NCBI GenBank assembly: GCA_904374485.1
Contig: CAJFFX010000004.1
Span: 1 to 51,784, forward strand
DNA from: Candidatus Pseudoscillospira falkowii
GTDB lineage: Bacteria; Bacillota; Clostridia; Oscillospirales; Oscillospiraceae
DNA length: 51,784 bases
Direction of reading: 5' to 3'
Shown: piece by piece, positions 26,814 through 35,566 of the stretch
How the letters are laid out: the number at the start of each line of letters is the position of its first letter
Position numbering within the stretch: the first letter of the stretch is position 1
The notes under the pieces: model-generated
Seen by the model: the letters and a program-made list of their open reading frames with translations, nothing else
What the model was told of the DNA's origin: nothing
Databases searched by the model: none
Program-made: the position numbers and the translations under genes

Positions 26814-27896
26814 TTATTTTTCCAGTGCCTCGCAGATCAGCGCGCCCATTTTCCTGCAGCCCACCAGCTTTTCTGCGCTGCCCATGGTGTCGGCAGTGTG
26901 CCAGCCAGCGTCCAGGACCTCGTCCACCGCCTTTTCAATGGCGGCAGATTCCTCCGGCAGATCGAAGGAATACTTGAACATCATGGCAACGGACAGGATC
27001 GTGGCAATGGGATTCGCCTTGTCCTGACCGGCGATGTCGGGTGCGCTGCCGTGGATCGGCTCATACAGCGCCGGCGCGCTGCTGCCGATAGATGCGGAGG
27101 GCAGCAGGCCCAAGGACCCCGTCACCATGCTGGCCTCGTCGGAGAGGATGTCGCCGAACATGTTTTCGGTCACGATCACGTCGAATTGGGAAGGATCGCG
27201 CACGAGCTGCATGGCGCAGTTGTCCACCAGCACGTCCTCCAGCTCCACATCGGGATAATCCGCCGCGATGCGGTGCATGGTAGCGCGCCACAGGCGGGAG
27301 GTCTCCAGCACGTTGGCCTTATCCACGGAGGCGACGCGCTTGCGCCGCTTCCGGGCCAGCTCAAAGGCCCGGCGGCCGATGCGCTCGATTTCCATTTCGC
27401 TGTAGGCCATCAGGTCGGTGCATTCGACGCCGCGGTCCTCGGTTTCATAGCGGCCGCGCTTGCCGAAATAGATGCCGCCGATAAGCTCCCGCACCATCAT
27501 GATGTCGATGCCCTTCTCCGCGGTTTCCTTTTTCAGCGGAGAGGCGTCCACCAGGGCAGGACGCAGCGTGGCATGGCGCAGATTGGCATACAGGCCCAAA
27601 TCCTTGCGGATGGCCAGCAGCGCCGTTTCCGGCCGCTGCTCGGCCGGTTTGTCCGGTCCCCACTTTGGCCCGCCCACGGCGCCGAGCAAAACAGCGTCGC
27701 AGGCCCTGCACTTTTCAGCGGTCCCCTCTGGATAGGATACACCATATTTGTCCGTGGCGCAACCACCCAGATCCACTTCTGTATAAGAAATCGTATGTCC
27801 GAACTTTTTGCCCACGGCGTTCATCACGCCGACGGCCTGCTCCACGATCTCCGGGCCGATGCCGTCGCCGCGGATCAATGCGATTTTATATTCCAT
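26814..27896 (-). CDS. leuB: 3-Isopropylmalate dehydrogenase
   Basis: NAD-dependent oxidative decarboxylation of 3-isopropylmalate in leucine synthesis. The 360-aa protein has [37 protein letters not shown], the catalytic Lys in [11 protein letters not shown], and the metal-binding Asp pair in [14 protein letters not shown], then [13 protein letters not shown]. It sits between leuD (23 nt) and coaX. Confidence 0.97.
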
Positions 27897-27919: not shown

Positions 27920-28408
27920 TTATTTGGCAAGGCCTCGCTTTTTCAGCGAATTCATCAGTCCGCCCGCCGCGATGATCTCCTCCACAAAAGCGGGGAACGG
28001 CGCGCTCTGATACGTTTTGCCCTTCGTTTTATTCGTGATAACGCCGGTGGAGAAATCCACGTCGATCTCGTCACTGGCCGCAATGTCCTCCGCCGCCTCC
28101 GGGCACTCCATGATCGGGAAGCCGATATTGATGGCGTTGCGGTAAAAAATGCGGGCAAAGCTTTTGGCAATGACGCACTTCACGCCGCAAGCCTGGATGG
28201 CGATGGGCGCATGCTCCCGGGAGGAACCGCAGCCGAAATTCGCGCCGGCCACGATGAAATCGCCCTGCTGGACGGTCTTTGCAAAATCGAGGTCGATATC
28301 CTCCATGCAGTGCTTGGCCAGCTCGCTCTTCTGGGGCGCGTTGAGGTATCTTGCGGGAATAATCACATCGGTATCGATGTTGTCGCCGTATTTATAAACT
28401 TTTGCCAT
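27920..28408 (-). CDS. leuD: 3-Isopropylmalate dehydratase small subunit
   Basis: Swivelling small subunit of isopropylmalate isomerase, forming the active site with LeuC. The 162-aa protein has [16 protein letters not shown] at the N-terminus, [15 protein letters not shown] and [16 protein letters not shown]. It lies 15 nt after leuC and is part of the leuC-leuD-leuB order. Confidence 0.97.
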
Positions 28409-28423: not shown

Positions 28424-29686
28424 TTATTCCACTTCCGCGGGCGAAGCCACACAGCCCTTGATGGCGGACGCCGCCGCCACGGCGGGGCTGGACAGAATGA
28501 TCATCGAAGACGTGGGACCCATTCTGCCCACAAAGTTGCGGTTCGTGGTGGAAATGGCCCATTCGTTGTCTGCCAGAACGCCCATATGGCCGCCGAGGCA
28601 GGGGCCGCAGGTGGGCGTGGAAACGGCGCAGCCGGCGTTGATAAACGTTTCGACCAGGCCCTCCTTTACTGCCTGGAGATAACACTCCTGGGTGGCCGGG
28701 ATCACAATGCAGCGGATGTTGGCGGCCACGGTCCGGCCCTTCATGATCTCCGCCGCTTCCCGCAGATCCTGGATGCGGCCGTTGGTGCAGGAGCCGATCA
28801 CGACCTGGTCGAGATGCATGCCGGCCACTTCGTCCACCGTTTTGGTGTTGGAGGGCAGGTGCGGCATGGCCACCGTGGGCTTGAGGGTATCCAGGTCGAT
28901 GGTGACCGTACGGGCATAAACGGCGTCTTCATCCGCTTCAAACGCCTGGTAGGCGCGGCTTGTGCGGCCGGAAAGGTAAGCGATTGTTTTTTCGTCCACC
29001 GGGAAAATGCCGTTCTTGGCGCCGCACTCGATGGCCATGTTGGAGATGGTGAAGCGGTCGTCCATGGAGAGGTCCGCCACGCCTTCGCCGGTAAATTCCA
29101 GGCTCTGATACAGCGCGCCGTCCACGCCGATCAGGCCGATCAGGTGCAGGATCACGTCCTTGCCGCTGACATAACGCTGCTTTTTGCCTTTCAGCACCAC
29201 TTTGATGGCCTGGGGCACCTTGAACCATGCGGTGCCCGTCGCCATGCCCGCCGCCATATCCGTGGAGCCGATGCCCGTGGAGAAGGCGCCCAGGGCGCCG
29301 TAGGTGCAGGTGTGGGAATCGGCGCCGATGATGCAGTCGCCGGGCAGCGTCAGGCCCTTTTCCGGGAGCAGGGCATGCTCGATGCCGACGGTGCCCACGT
29401 CAAAGAAATTCTTGATCTCATGCTTTTTGGCAAAATTCCGCGCCGTGGCGCACAACTGCGCCGCCTTGATGTCCTTGCAGGGCGTATAGTGATCCAGCAC
29501 GATGGCGATCTTGTTTTTATCAAATACCTCCGTCAATCCGGCATCCTCGAATACGCCGATGGCCACAGGGGTCGTGATATCGTTGCCCAGCACCAGGTCC
29601 AGCCTGCATTCGATCAGCTGCCCGGCCTCCACATGATCCAGCCCCGCGTGGGCTGCCAGGATCTTCTGGCTCATTGTCATTCCCAT
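28424..29686 (-). CDS. leuC: 3-Isopropylmalate dehydratase large subunit
   Basis: Aconitase-family subunit carrying a 4Fe-4S cluster. The 420-aa protein has cluster ligands in IGSCTNGRI and [13 protein letters not shown], plus [13 protein letters not shown] and [15 protein letters not shown]. The length is that of the bacterial/archaeal short type. The ATG at 29686 has GGGAG 9 nt upstream. First gene of leuCDB-coaX. leuA and ilv genes are not in the window. The predicted leader is only about 31 nt, leaving no room for a T-box or leader-peptide attenuator. Confidence 0.97.
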
Positions 29687-29723
29687 ATAAACACACTCCC
29701 GTTCACGTTCTTTTGATGTGTTT

Positions 29724-29732
29724 ATTATGGCA
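29724..29732 (-). promoter_or_regulatory. Extended -10 of the leuC promoter
   Basis: On the minus strand TGCCATAAT is an extended -10 with no good -35 at 17 bp. That suggests activator dependence. The predicted start is near 29717. Confidence 0.5.
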
Positions 29733-29739
29733 CAGTTCC

Positions 29740-29768
29740 TTGCGACAGAATGTAAACTATGTTACAAT
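29740..29768 (+). promoter_or_regulatory. Promoter of the Crp/Fnr-family gene
   Basis: TTGCGA at 29740-29745 and TACAAT at 29763-29768 with a 17-bp spacer. Confidence 0.65.
29751..29766. promoter_or_regulatory. Crp-type operator TGTAA-N6-TTACA
   Basis: TGTAA (29751-29755) and TTACA (29762-29766) form a palindrome with the same N6 spacing as the E. coli CRP site TGTGA-N6-TCACA. It overlaps the -10 of the regulator gene and is centred at -41.5 relative to the predicted leuC start. Confidence 0.6.
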
Positions 29769-29798
29769 TAAGAAAATTTCTCCAAAGCAGGTGGTTTT

Positions 29799-30461
29799 TT
29801 GCAGCATCAGTACGAGTATTTCATGTCCGACACGCTGGACCTGCCGAAGGATGTGTGGCTCCCCTTCTCCGCCGCGGGCCAGCCCCTATCCTACCCCAAG
29901 GGAAAGCTGCTCTACAGCCAGGGCGAACAGGCCGACTGCTTTTATTATCTGTGCGCCGGACGGATCAAAACATTCATCAGTTCCACAGACGGCAACGAGC
30001 GCTTGCTGACCATCTATAAGAAAGGCGATATCCTGGGCGAAGCCTCCTTTTTTGACGGCCGTCCGCGGGTATCCTCCGCCCAGCTGATGACCGACGCGCG
30101 CGTCGTCTCCATCGACCGCCCCGCTCTGGAGCGCTGCCTTCGCCAGTCCCCCGACCTGACCTTCTCCCTGCTCAAATACCTCTCCGCCACAGTGTGGATG
30201 CTCTCCACCCATCTGGACGCCGCCTCCTTCCTGCCGGCCGACGTGCGCATCGTCCGCCTGCTGCTGAACATGGACCCCGGCGGGGAGCACCGCATCGCCT
30301 GCACCCACGAGGAGCTGAGCTACACCCTGGGTTTGAGCCGCGTGACGGTCAGCCGCGTTCTGAGCGCCCTGGCAAAACGGGGTTGGATCCGCCCAGGCTA
30401 CCGGAGCGTCACGCTGACAGATCTTGACGCCATGGAGCGCATGGTCACGGATATCCAATAA
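29799..30461 (+). CDS. Crp/Fnr-family transcriptional regulator
   Basis: A 220-aa regulator with a cyclic-nucleotide-binding-like N-terminal domain (YPKGKLLYSQGEQADCFYYLCAGRIKTF, KKGDILGEASFFDGRPR) and a C-terminal winged helix (CTHEELSYTLGLSRVTVSRVLSAL). It has no cysteine cluster typical of oxygen-sensing Fnr, so the signal is unknown. The recognition helix SRVTVSR has Val182 where E. coli CRP has Glu181. It is divergent from leuC and may control both itself and the leu operon. The start is TTG 29799 with AGGTGG just upstream (spacing 4, short); ATG 29823 is an alternative. Confidence 0.88.
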   Translation: MQHQYEYFMSDTLDLPKDVWLPFSAAGQPLSYPKGKLLYSQGEQADCFYYLCAGRIKTFISSTDGNERLLTIYKKGDILGEASFFDGRPRVSSAQLMTDARVVSIDRPALERCLRQSPDLTFSLLKYLSATVWMLSTHLDAASFLPADVRIVRLLLNMDPGGEHRIACTHEELSYTLGLSRVTVSRVLSALAKRGWIRPGYRSVTLTDLDAMERMVTDIQ

Positions 30462-30512: not shown

Positions 30513-33500
30513 TCAGCGCACCATCAGCCCCACGAGCCGCTGGAGCATCGCCGCCGCTTCCACCCGGGTGGCGGTCCCGGCGGGGTCCAGCGTCCCTTCC
30601 GGCCGGCCGGCAAGAATGCCGCTGTCCACGGTCCAGGCCACTGCATCCCGCGCCCAATCGGATACACTGCCGCTGTCGCTGAAGCTGCGCAGCGTATCCC
30701 TGCCGCCAGTGCGCATGCCCTGCGTTTTCGCATAGCGGTAAAGCATCACCGCCAGCTGTTCGCGGGTGATGGGCGCATCGGGCCGGAAGCTGCCGTCCGC
30801 GTAGCCCACAACGATCTCTTCCGCCGCGGCCCAGGCCACCGCTTGGGCATACCAGGCGTCTGCGCCGACGTCAGAAAAATCGCTCTGCCGCGTCTCCCCC
30901 TCCGCTCCTTCCAGGCGGCAGAGGACCGTGGCCAGCATACTGCGGCTCAGCGTCGTGTTTGGGGCAAAGCGATCCGCGGCCACACCGCGCAGCAGTTCCC
31001 GCCCGGCAACAAAATCCACCGCGTCAGCATACCACGCATCCTGCGCGACATCCGCAAAGGAATTCGTATATGTGACCAGCCGGACGGAAGCGTCCTCTTC
31101 CAAAAGGAAGCGGATCTTCCCGTCTTCCAGCGCCGATTTTTTCAAGACCTTTTCGGTTCCGTCCGCATACACGATGACCACAATCTGCCCCGGTTCGGCG
31201 GAAAGCGTCACGCGCTGGGGGCCGCTGCTGTTCTTGGGCAGCGTGATCTCATACACGCCCCTGCCGCTGTTCCACACCACTTCCGCCCCGGCCTCTTCCT
31301 CCCGGCCGGGCTGGGTCGAACTGCTCCAATCGTCGTTTTCATAGCCGTTTTCCTTCTCATAATCCTCGGTATAGAACACCTGGATCGTGTCCCCGTCATG
31401 GAGGCCGCAGGCGGCCATATACACGTTGGGGATAGTCCCGTTGACCCGGTAGAGCCAGCCGGAATTTTCACCCATGTCTTCTTCGGCCAGAATATCTCCA
31501 TTCGGTTTGGTAATGGAAACGATGTAAGTCCCCCGTTCCCGTGTGTAAGTATAGCCATTCTCCGAAAGCACCTGCTGGAATATATCATAAACCGTTTTCT
31601 GCTCATCCAGGCCGGTGAGCGTGACCGGCGCAATCCAGGTACCCTCCGGGCCAACAAGGGTAAAAGTCACATCAACGGTTTCCTCCACCGGAATTGTGCT
31701 GGCGGGATTTTTGGTGCCGCGCACCAGAACGGTGGCCGTATCGTTTTCCGAAACAGCACTGCCGGTTTTCGCCGCTGCAGCTGTTCTGGCCGATACAGCG
31801 GATTGGGACGCCGTTTCCGCCGTCACCGGCTGATAATACAGATCCTGCAGCGCTTCGTACTGTGCATATTTCACCGGGTCGCTCTGATACAGCTCCCCAT
31901 ATCGTCCCAGGGTTTCGCTGGAAAGATAACTGGTAATTGTCACCGCCTTGGCTTCGCTTTGACGCGTCACTTCCAGGGTTTCATGGGCAATAACGCCGGG
32001 GTTGCTGGATCGGAACAAGCGCCAGGCCTCCAGTTCTTCCCAGCCTTCAATCGGCGTGGGAACGATGCCGCTGCCTTTCATATCCTTTGCGTCCCGCACC
32101 CAGACCAGCTGTCCGCTTTCACCCTCGTAAACCTCAACAAAAGGCGTCAGGTCATAGCGCACATCATCTTTGGCCGCATTCGCGCCATTGTTCAGGCCGT
32201 TAAAATAGTTGGCTTTCACTTTTTCCATCAGCGCCAGTTCCGCGTCAATCTCCTCCTGCGTCAGCGCAGGCACATAGATTTTGAATTCTTTAGACGCCGT
32301 AATGCTGGTATCCCTGTCATGGAGGGTCACGGTAATGGTAGCGGAAGCTGCCTCCTGACCCACGCCGGGGCGATACACCCAGAACCGGGCGGCGTTGTTG
32401 ACATCAGGGGCTGTAATCACATCGGCACAATTGCTGGAAAGCGTAACCGGATAATATTTCCCATCCACGCCAAAATCCCGGGTAGTGGGCAGCTGAATGT
32501 CGTTGACAGCTGTGTAACTCCCGTCTGCATTGCGCTGCAGCTGTTCTCCGGTTACTGCATCGGTCAGGCCCTTAGTGGCAAAACCGGCGTCCAGTTTTGC
32601 CATCAGCGCAGCGCGGATGGTGTCTGCATCTTCCTCCGTCATCGCCGGAACGGTCACTTCATAGCTCTGATACAGCACAATCGGCCGTTCGTTTCCGCCG
32701 ACGTCGTTGGTCAGCTGAAACGTAAACGCAGCAGTCAGCGTGACCTTCTGTGCCGTCTCTCCCGGTTTGACAACACCGATATAAGGCGCAAACAACTCAT
32801 CGGAAGAAGACTGAGTTTCGCTGCTGATGGAAATCACATCTTCATTGGAAGATTCCCAGGAAATCAGCGTCCAGGTCTTCCCATCCACCGCACGGGGAAG
32901 TGTGAGATTCCCGGTAACGGAGGAAGCCGTATCTCCCTCTGCCAAAATGCTTTCCAGGGTGACCTGATTCAGAATTTCCTGTTTCATGGCCGTTTCCACT
33001 TTCTCCGCATCCCAGTAGAGGAGCACGGGGACAGGGCCAAAAGAAAGCTTTGCGCCGTCTTTTTCCAGCAAAAACGTCACCTGACAGCGGCCGAAATGAA
33101 TTGCCGGCGCAGCGTTGGGGTCCGTGTAAAAATAAGTGACGTCGCCGTTTTCCGCAATGCCTGCGCCGCCATACTCTTCAACGACCGATTGCACGGAAAC
33201 CTCGATGCCGTCAAAGCCTTCCGCTTTCAAATCGCTTTGCAGCATTTCGTTGAGATTGATGTCCTCGCCGTAAACCGGATAGAGTTTGTACCATTCTCCC
33301 AAAGACGCCGCAGCCTGTTGGAGCACAGACTGCCGATCCGCATCCACCGCCGCCTGGGACCAGACAACAACGGAAAACGCCTTGGTCTCTGTTTTCCCTC
33401 CATAGGACAGCGTCGCCGTCAGCGTGACGGTTTCTTTGCCCTCGTCAGGCAAGGTCACCGTGCCATCGGCGGAAATGACAAGCGGGTTGCTGCTTTCCCA

Positions 33501-35219
33501 TGTGATGGCAGAGCCATTTTTGCCCCGCTCAGGCAAAGTCAGCTTTGTATTGTCCGCCCGCAACTCTTCCGGAAGCGTCAGCGCATCCCGGTCGGCGGAA
33601 AGAATACCGTCCGCTTTTTCGGCAATCTGAATGGGCCGCGGCGGCGTTTTCTCCTCGCCGTTGTAGATACATTTGAAATACAAATAATCCCCCGCCAGAT
33701 TCTCCGGGACAACCAGCGTCCGCGCCGGCGATTCCAGCGGTACGAGCTTGTCGTAGTCCAAATAATCCTCTTGTTTCAGATAATACCACTGCACTTGAAC
33801 CTCGGGGAACTGGTCATAGTCGTATTCTTCTCCGCCCAACGTGTTGATTTGTGCCCAAACCGTCTGGCCGGCCGCCACGGTTCCTGCAATCTCCACGGTG
33901 GTGACAAAGGGCATCACTGTAAGTTCTATCTCATCCGAATAGTCTCCCGCCGTGGCCCGGACGGTCGCTTTGCCCGGCTGCAGCGCCTGAACGATGCGCA
34001 CATTGTCCGACGCGCCCGGATTCTGCACCTGGCGCAGCGCGACAACGCCCTCGCCGCTGATCAGCTCCCAGGTAACCGCGGGTTCTTCCTCCATATTTTT
34101 GTATGCGACAGTCAGCGTGCTCGTCGGCTTGTCGCCGCTGTTGGTATCATACAGCACAGCGGAGCCGGTGATCTCTATGGCGGGCTCCTGCTGCACAGGC
34201 CCTGTCCCCGCCTGCCAGGCCAGAATGGGCCAGCCGCCGTTGATGTTGCCGCTGTCGGCAGCAAAAGCGGAACCCAATTTTTCCGCCAGCCCATCGGCGC
34301 CGGAAATCTGCGCGCAATTTGTGACGGATCCTGTGCCCGCTCCGGTGGCCGTGTGTTGGTAATAGCAGTTGGTCAGGCTGGCGGATGTATATAAAAAGTC
34401 GCAGATATCTGCGGCGGTGCTGCTGCCGGTCACCGCGCCGATATTGTAACTGTTGGCTGCGGAGCAGTTGTTCTGCAGCTGCGCAGCAATGCCGCCGGCG
34501 CGGGAAGCGCCGCTGATTTCCCCGGTATGATAGCAGTCGGAGATTGCGGTATATTTGGCATAGCCAACGATGCCGCCGGCATAACCGCCGCTGGTGACGC
34601 TGCCCGCATGGAAGCAGCCTGTAATGGCCGCTGTCTGCGTCTTGGTGTTTCCGGCATAGCCGGTGATACCGCCGGCATAACCGCCGTTTTTCGTGCAGCT
34701 TACCGTTCCGGTAAACGAGCAGTTTTCAATCGTGCCCGACTGCACCTGACCCACAATGCCGCCCACATAATTGCCCGAGGAGGCCACGCTGCCCTCCACC
34801 TGCAAATTTTTGATGGTGGCGCCGTTGATCCGCCCGAACAGGCCCTGATACGATGCGCTGCTGTCGATGGACAATCCGCGGATGGTGTGGCCGTCTCCGT
34901 CAAAGGTGCCGGCATAAGCGCTGCTGACATACCCATCGGCCGGGGCAAAGGGCTCCCACGGTTCCTTTTGCAAATCGATGTCCGCCGTCAGTTTTGCGCA
35001 AAGCCCGGCGTTCGGGTTCTCTCCATCATCCGCCGCCCCTCCTGCGACCAGGTCCCGAAACGCCTTCAAATCCGCTGCGTCTGCAATCAGGTACGGTTCT
35101 CCCGCCGTCCCGCTGCCCTGCAGCGCGCCTTCTGCCGCCCAGGCCGTTCCGGGAAGCAGTCCCAGCATCAGGGTCAGGGCCAGCAAAAGGCTCAGGCATC
35201 TGTGTTTGCGTTGTTTCAT
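30513..35219 (-). CDS. Giant S-layer-anchored surface protein with DUF4430 (transcobalamin-like) domain
   Basis: A 1,568-aa secreted protein. A signal peptide (MKQRKHRCLSLLLALTLMLGLL, cut near AWA-AEG) leads to a beta-helix region with GLUG-type repeats (GGIVGQVQS, GGITGYAGN, GGIVGYAK, GGIAAQLQN; about residues 70-330). Several Ig-like or atrophied-Ig domains follow (for example ITWESSNPLVISADGTVTLP; about 350-1150). A DUF4430 domain spans about 1180-1285 (ENSGWLYRVNGTIPNVYMAACGLHDGDTIQVFY). Three SLH domains close it (about 1384-1568: SFADVAQDAWYADAVDF, DFSDVGADAWYAQAVAW, DSGSVSDWARDAVAW). DUF4430 resembles the C-terminal domain of transcobalamin. With the upstream B12 riboswitch this suggests surface capture of cobalamin. 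ATG 35219 has GGAG at 8 nt. Single-gene transcript. Confidence 0.9.
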   Translation of the reverse strand: MKQRKHRCLSLLLALTLMLGLLPGTAWAAEGALQGSGTAGEPYLIADAADLKAFRDLVAGGAADDGENPNAGLCAKLTADIDLQKEPWEPFAPADGYVSSAYAGTFDGDGHTIRGLSIDSSASYQGLFGRINGATIKNLQVEGSVASSGNYVGGIVGQVQSGTIENCSFTGTVSCTKNGGYAGGITGYAGNTKTQTAAITGCFHAGSVTSGGYAGGIVGYAKYTAISDCYHTGEISGASRAGGIAAQLQNNCSAANSYNIGAVTGSSTAADICDFLYTSASLTNCYYQHTATGAGTGSVTNCAQISGADGLAEKLGSAFAADSGNINGGWPILAWQAGTGPVQQEPAIEITGSAVLYDTNSGDKPTSTLTVAYKNMEEEPAVTWELISGEGVVALRQVQNPGASDNVRIVQALQPGKATVRATAGDYSDEIELTVMPFVTTVEIAGTVAAGQTVWAQINTLGGEEYDYDQFPEVQVQWYYLKQEDYLDYDKLVPLESPARTLVVPENLAGDYLYFKCIYNGEEKTPPRPIQIAEKADGILSADRDALTLPEELRADNTKLTLPERGKNGSAITWESSNPLVISADGTVTLPDEGKETVTLTATLSYGGKTETKAFSVVVWSQAAVDADRQSVLQQAAASLGEWYKLYPVYGEDINLNEMLQSDLKAEGFDGIEVSVQSVVEEYGGAGIAENGDVTYFYTDPNAAPAIHFGRCQVTFLLEKDGAKLSFGPVPVLLYWDAEKVETAMKQEILNQVTLESILAEGDTASSVTGNLTLPRAVDGKTWTLISWESSNEDVISISSETQSSSDELFAPYIGVVKPGETAQKVTLTAAFTFQLTNDVGGNERPIVLYQSYEVTVPAMTEEDADTIRAALMAKLDAGFATKGLTDAVTGEQLQRNADGSYTAVNDIQLPTTRDFGVDGKYYPVTLSSNCADVITAPDVNNAARFWVYRPGVGQEAASATITVTLHDRDTSITASKEFKIYVPALTQEEIDAELALMEKVKANYFNGLNNGANAAKDDVRYDLTPFVEVYEGESGQLVWVRDAKDMKGSGIVPTPIEGWEELEAWRLFRSSNPGVIAHETLEVTRQSEAKAVTITSYLSSETLGRYGELYQSDPVKYAQYEALQDLYYQPVTAETASQSAVSARTAAAAKTGSAVSENDTATVLVRGTKNPASTIPVEETVDVTFTLVGPEGTWIAPVTLTGLDEQKTVYDIFQQVLSENGYTYTRERGTYIVSITKPNGDILAEEDMGENSGWLYRVNGTIPNVYMAACGLHDGDTIQVFYTEDYEKENGYENDDWSSSTQPGREEEAGAEVVWNSGRGVYEITLPKNSSGPQRVTLSAEPGQIVVIVYADGTEKVLKKSALEDGKIRFLLEEDASVRLVTYTNSFADVAQDAWYADAVDFVAGRELLRGVAADRFAPNTTLSRSMLATVLCRLEGAEGETRQSDFSDVGADAWYAQAVAWAAAEEIVVGYADGSFRPDAPITREQLAVMLYRYAKTQGMRTGGRDTLRSFSDSGSVSDWARDAVAWTVDSGILAGRPEGTLDPAGTATRVEAAAMLQRLVGLMVR

Positions 35220-35275
35220 ATTTTTTCTCCTTTCTTCCAATCAGCGCCGCCTGCCCTTGTGCCCCTTGTTTGCAG

Positions 35276-35313: not shown

Positions 35314-35360
35314 CGACTTTTCCACGGGCATTTTCGGGCATGCTGACGCAAGCCCAACGC

Positions 35361-35566
35361 GATTCATCATAGGTCTTCCGGCTCGTGCGGTGTGGGGCAC
35401 AGGATGCTCCGCGGCCGACGCTCCGCCTTCTCAGGACTGCTCCCAATGACCGGCTCACGCCACGAACGGCAGCCTCCCGCACATACGGCAACGGGTATTG
35501 CTCCGGGTTCTCACCGGATTCCCTCATCCCCGCCTCTGCCGCGGGGCAGACACGAGGTCATGATGC
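35361..35566 (-). ncRNA. Cobalamin riboswitch
   Basis: Read on the minus strand, the conserved core GGGAATCCGGTGAGAACCCG corresponds to the B12-box region GGGAA..GGTGnaAatCC. It is followed by an ACCCG..GCCGTAtGTG segment, CCTGAGAAGGC, and GAGCCGGAAGACCTATGATG, which matches the AGCCAGGAGACCT 3' element. The ends CATGACC and CCTATGATG can close the P1 region. It lies between a consensus promoter and a terminator, so adenosylcobalamin or another cobalamin should switch the S-layer gene off. Boundaries are approximate. Confidence 0.9.

Follow-up and report, generated by a model that had tools for sequence, protein, structure and literature searches.

A predicted CRP/FNR-family class II activator of leuCDB, with related branched-chain amino-acid targets, in Clostridia

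The window, by which we mean the whole stretch of 51,784 nucleotides that was analysed, contains three leucine genes on the minus strand and, divergent from leuC, the gene of a putative transcriptional regulator. The intergenic region between the regulator gene and leuC contains an operator-like palindrome. The genes and the regulator's own features are as follows.

26,814–27,896, minus strand: leuB (TIGR00169, above cut-off)
27,920–28,408, minus strand: leuD (TIGR02084, above cut-off)
28,424–29,686, minus strand: leuC, 3-isopropylmalate dehydratase large subunit (TIGR02083, 704 bits, above cut-off; ATG at 29,686)
29,789–29,794, plus strand: ribosome-binding site AGGTGG of the regulator gene, from the sequence
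29,799–30,461, plus strand: CRP/FNR-family regulator of 220 aa, TTG start at 29,799 (Pfam cNMP_binding and HTH_Crp_2; homologues of equal extent)
30,339–30,356, plus strand: codons of the recognition helix, Arg181-Val182-Thr-Val-Ser-Arg186

Membership of the CRP/FNR superfamily is indicated by an N-terminal cNMP-binding fold (PF00027, E 2e-21) and a C-terminal HTH_Crp_2 domain (PF13545, E 3e-16). The AlphaFold model of the regulator (pLDDT 89.6) has its best fold match in M. tuberculosis CRP, and the sequence profile likewise. With its relatives it makes up a set of 77 regulators, which group together as a single clade (support 0.84) when placed in a tree with the sampled paralogues. Two better-known identities were rejected: the NCBIfam CRP model scores 59 bits against a cut-off of 266, and the N-terminal 4Fe-4S cysteine cluster of FNR is absent, with no Cys in residues 1–45 of the window protein.

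The window also contains a gene (30,513–35,240, minus strand) whose 1575-aa product combines DUF4430, bacterial Ig and S-layer homology domains. A cobalamin riboswitch (RF00174, 58.6 bits; 35,351–35,564, minus strand) is found directly 5' of it, and the product is possibly a B12-controlled surface protein.

Between the divergent genes, the following elements were assigned.

29,717, minus strand: predicted leuC transcription start, inferred from the −10; the operator centre falls at −41.5 and the leader to the ATG at 29,686 is about 31 nt
29,724–29,729, minus strand: leuC −10 hexamer CATAAT, from the sequence, 20–22 bp from the operator in 63 loci
29,730–29,732, minus strand: TGN extension (TGC) of the leuC −10, from the sequence; TG at this gap in 46/63 loci
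29,740–29,745, plus strand: regulator −35 TTGCGA, from the promoter scan
29,748–29,750, plus strand: conserved GAA beside the operator (TTC on the leuC strand), in 62–63 of 63 loci
29,751–29,766, no strand assigned: predicted operator TGTAAACTATGTTACA, core TGTA-N8-TACA, from the sequence; all 63 homologous loci keep at least 7/8 core bases
29,763–29,768, plus strand: regulator −10 TACAAT, from the promoter scan, overlapped by the operator; TG at 29,760–29,761

The operator TGTAAACTATGTTACA is a perfect TGTAA-N6-TTACA palindrome with its centre at 29,758.5, and it occupies positions −34 to −49 relative to the predicted leuC start. On the plus strand, TTGCGA-N17-TACAAT (29,740–29,768), with a TG before the −10, is the sole promoter-like match between 29,600 and 30,600; the operator overlaps the spacer and −10 of this regulator promoter. 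The earlier note had placed a palindrome at 29,751–29,766, centred at −41.5 of leuC and lying over the regulator's own spacer and −10, and both placements were confirmed in the sequence. A genome scan for exact TGTAA-N6-TTACA, which the same note had proposed, returned a single copy in 1.89 Mb, the one at leuC. With up to one mismatch allowed, the window contains one match against 0.27 expected.

Of 300 genomes searched in the window's family, 68 have this regulator or one related to it. We compared 63 divergent regulator/leuC loci, two public contigs included; these derive mostly from MAGs and are related to one another, and their counts are not counts of independent events. At the other divergent loci the regulators are 31–70% identical to that of the window. 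When the 63 intergenic regions are aligned without gaps, the operator, both hexamers of the regulator promoter, the GAA and the leuC −10 all remain in register. The TGTA-N8-TACA core is complete (8/8) in 54 loci and has 7/8 bases in the remaining nine. Presence of the palindrome upstream of orthologous leuC/regulator pairs had been set beforehand as the test on which the proposal could fail, and the palindrome was present at 7/8 or better in 63/63, a conservation that excludes a chance origin. The form of the core needs refining: strict TGTAA-N6-TTACA occurs in 18/63 loci, both halves are variable at their fifth base and the core is better written TGTA-N8-TACA.

The distance from the palindrome to the leuC −10 is nearly fixed, at 21 bp in 54/63 loci, 22 bp in eight and 20 bp in one. 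Among bases placed 16–18 bp upstream of the −10, the best match to TTGACA is 1/6 in 59 loci and 2/6 in four, which is below random expectation, while the hexamers of the regulator promoter are good across the 63 loci. The lack of a −35, as the earlier note had read the leuC promoter, is common to all 63 loci. The note's assignment of the class II activator position was likewise supported: a site at about −41.5, a recognisable −10 and no −35 recur at all 63 leuC loci with gaps of 20–22 bp, and four leuC genes unlinked to a regulator keep the site. No T-box or other Rfam leader was detected at the tested leuC loci, whether the regulator was present or absent. Near the leuC/regulator region of one relative, a Gut-1 sRNA (RF01706) was found at L018:1092–1169.

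This layout suggests that a regulator dimer bound at the palindrome would activate leuCDB as a class II activator, the dimer at −41.5 substituting for the missing −35 beside the extended −10, with leuC as the conserved core target. A protein at −34 to −49, centred at −41.5, could in principle repress leuC instead, and some CRP-family proteins are repressors. However, the reading in which the regulator represses leuC and other targets by blocking RNA polymerase at the −35 region appears unlikely, since there is no −35 to block in the 63 loci (1–2/6 matches) and the near-fixed gap of 20–22 bp, together with an extended −10 at several targets, is the signature of class II activators, as at NtcA promoters (PMC3898017). 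In that system a site GTAN8TAC near −41.5 is combined with a −10 of the form TAN3T and no −35, matching class II promoters, and NtcA boxes located downstream of a −35 repress (PMC3898017).

The regulator was also found in a second family of the same order, where it lies away from leuC in four genomes. Each of these leuC genes has an 8/8 site with a 21-bp gap to the −10, and the upstream region of the regulator itself carries no site in any of the four. In one genus (L142, L143) leuC, leuD and the regulator gene run in one direction; in this rearranged unit leuC has a 7/8 site and the gap is 20 bp. Conversely, in 14 genomes of the window's family where no regulator was detected, a site of at least 7/8 within 320 bp was found for none of the leuC copies (0/15).

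These arrangements also bear on a purely autoregulatory role, in which the site would mainly control the regulator gene and leuC would be constitutive from its extended −10. The site over the regulator −10 and spacer is in a classic repressor position, and the regulator promoter is strong by consensus; yet leuC keeps the site in the unlinked genomes while the regulator lacks one, and an identical site and gap precede ilvE, ilvC and leuB, none of which adjoins the regulator, so that we give this explanation very little credence. With activation of leuC as the preferred reading, the same bound dimer would still lie across the −10 and spacer of the regulator promoter and should hold down production of the regulator. 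From the sequence layout, autorepression is probable where the genes are divergent; for the regulator at large it is plausible yet apparently not essential, because no site precedes the regulator gene where it is unlinked to leuC.

When whole genomes were scanned with the bare operator and the leuC sites were set aside, matches barely exceeded those of the reversed control, and a composite pattern (operator, NTC, 19 bases, ATNNT) was therefore used, with the reversed pattern as control. Across 75 regulator-bearing genomes it gave 73 matches versus three for the control. Twenty-five of these places lie away from leuC: 15 before ilvE, the gene of a class IV branched-chain aminotransferase, five before ilvC, two before leuB, and three random-looking ones without such a gene. 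A sixteenth ilvE site was recovered by the plain operator scan, giving ilvE sites in 16 genomes, ilvC sites in five and leuB sites in two, all in relatives. The ilvE promoters have the 21-bp gap in all cases (16/16), and the operator-adjacent TTC is kept before ilvE and ilvC. Pfam confirmed the identity of one ilvE product (Aminotran_4) and one IlvC (KARI_N, KARI_C); the remaining products were named from near-identical N-terminal sequences. The pattern also matched four times in 75 genomes of the family where no regulator was detected, two of these matches being random-looking and two before ilvC; the latter two sit in MAGs that are 73% and 83% complete, from which the regulator may simply be missing.

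Recurrence of the composite operator and −10 before ilvE, ilvC and leuB points to a branched-chain amino-acid activator. A regulon broader than leuC is supported in the relatives by this shared promoter, and there the protein would also drive the promoters of ilvE, ilvC and, where it is separate, leuB by the same arrangement. For the window's own genome the comparison supports leuC alone, the sole site found; in its genus the nearest ilvE homologue, about 40% identical to the regulon ilvE, has no site.

Relative to the leuC promoter the operator is asymmetric, with a distal half-site TGTAWCAY on the leuC strand versus a proximal TTTACATTC. The conserved TG in the operator centre might be ascribed to the regulator's extended −10 alone, and this was rejected: the C at operator position 6 (positions 6–7 being 29,761–29,760 on the leuC strand) is kept in 63/63 leuC and 16/16 ilvE sites. 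As the ilvE sites have no divergent regulator, part of the asymmetry belongs to the operator.

The recognition helix of the regulator reads S180-R-V-T-V-S-R186, with Val182 aligned to Glu181 of CRP. In E. coli CRP, changing Glu181 to Val, Leu or Lys shifts the preference at the G of TGTGA towards A. The earlier note had paired the Val at this position with the G-to-A change in the operator, and the pairing survives comparison, since residue 182 is Val in 73/77 family members and Ile in 4/77 and the TGTA core is present at 7/8 or better in 63/63 loci. Arg181 is invariant among the 77, and residue 186 is Arg or Lys. CRP uses Arg180 for contact with G2, and Arg185 together with Glu181 to read the G4:C4 pair (PMC11253593), so that A at position 4 is what loss of the Glu would fit. 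Arg181 and Arg186 presumably touch the DNA as their CRP counterparts do, and Val182 would remove the contact of Glu181 to the C opposite G4, fitting A there. Residues 180 and 181 are reported to correlate with operator bases across the family, HcpR2 with Pro181 included (PMC1274295), and the R-V-T-V-T-R helix of NtcA, with its GTAN8TAC site at −41.5, gives the altered helix a natural precedent. TGTTA/TGTAA palindromes also lie upstream of two distant paralogues whose helices are of the RV type (L117, L123), a comparison too sparse to count.

Likeness to NtcA extends to the CRP-family fold, the R-V-T-V-[ST]-R helix (R-V-T-V-S-R here), the operator core (GTA-N8-TAC at 29,752–29,765 in the window) and the class II layout, but NtcA, a cyanobacterial regulator with 2-oxoglutarate as its effector, has a nitrogen regulon whereas the regulator here has a small predicted branched-chain amino-acid regulon and fails the NtcA model (TIGR03697, 28.9 bits against a cut-off of 244.95). 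HcpR2 of Clostridia, a CRP/FNR-family protein of anaerobes, has a nearly identical palindrome, GTAACnnnnGTTAC, and Pro at 181 (PMC1274295); it carries Pro, Ser or Gln there, not Val, and its targets are hcp and frdX, in contrast to the Val or Ile at 182 and the composite sites at leuC, leuB, ilvE and ilvC, not hcp, of the present family. Despite the similar operator cores and the NtcA-like helix, it is extremely improbable that the regulator is an NtcA or HcpR2 homologue, serving nitrogen control or nitrosative stress with the leuC site as one among many, a reading that the NtcA model score and the predicted targets largely refute, the nearest solved relatives by sequence and fold being actinobacterial CRPs. 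Those proteins (M. tuberculosis CRP, GlxR), with E. coli CRP, share class II geometry with the regulator, which keeps the equivalents of Arg180, Arg185, Glu72, Arg82 and Ser128; it differs in the change of Glu181 to Val, in the replacement of Ser83, Thr127 and Arg123, and in TGTA instead of TGTGA.

From the comparisons of sequence we consider it highly probable that the divergent CRP/FNR-family regulator has the palindrome as its operator, activates leuCDB from a class II position and limits its own synthesis, and that the same protein drives ilvE, ilvC and separate leuB promoters in related genomes.

Residues of CRP that contact cAMP are Glu72, Arg82, Ser83, Arg123, Thr127 and Ser128 (PMC11253593). 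The equivalents of Glu72 and Arg82 are invariant in the 77 regulators and Ser128 is kept, but the full set is absent from the family: the Ser83 equivalent is V/I/M in 77/77, that of Thr127 is L in 76/77 and that of Arg123 is T/S in 71/77. A class III cyclase, the one cyclase class covered, was found in 1/20 regulator-bearing genomes. The ligand is probably not cAMP, and one with acidic and hydrophobic parts would fit the pocket; a leucine-pathway acid or keto acid is our guess. More tentatively, with the odds leaning somewhat against it, this separate clade of the CRP family, found in two families of one Clostridia order, may be a dedicated leucine/valine activator that senses a metabolite of the branched-chain amino-acid pathway, such as a branched keto acid or 2-isopropylmalate. 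The sensing site would be a cyclic-nucleotide pocket in altered form, in which Glu81 and Arg90 are invariant and hydrophobic residues are new.

Bacterial branched-chain amino-acid genes are controlled by CodY, Lrp, T-box leaders and the IclR-type NdgR, and in Firmicutes the usual explanations for this control are CodY, T-box leaders or attenuation. These systems, among them NdgR (PMC4340878) and CodY (PMC5794164), share the target pathway but belong to unrelated protein or RNA families. A search of part of the published papers found no CRP-type regulator of leuC or ilv genes, and a member of the CRP family dedicated to activating the synthesis of leucine and related amino acids is apparently undescribed so far. 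If the interpretation is true, a CRP-type activator devoted to branched-chain amino-acid genes, acting at a compact promoter of near-fixed design, would mean that a central pathway is controlled in a new way in this bacterial group. The conserved pocket makes the question of the ligand approachable by a simple binding screen. Furthermore, the family provides a large natural data set in which Val or Ile at the position of CRP Glu181 is linked to A/T at the fourth operator base.
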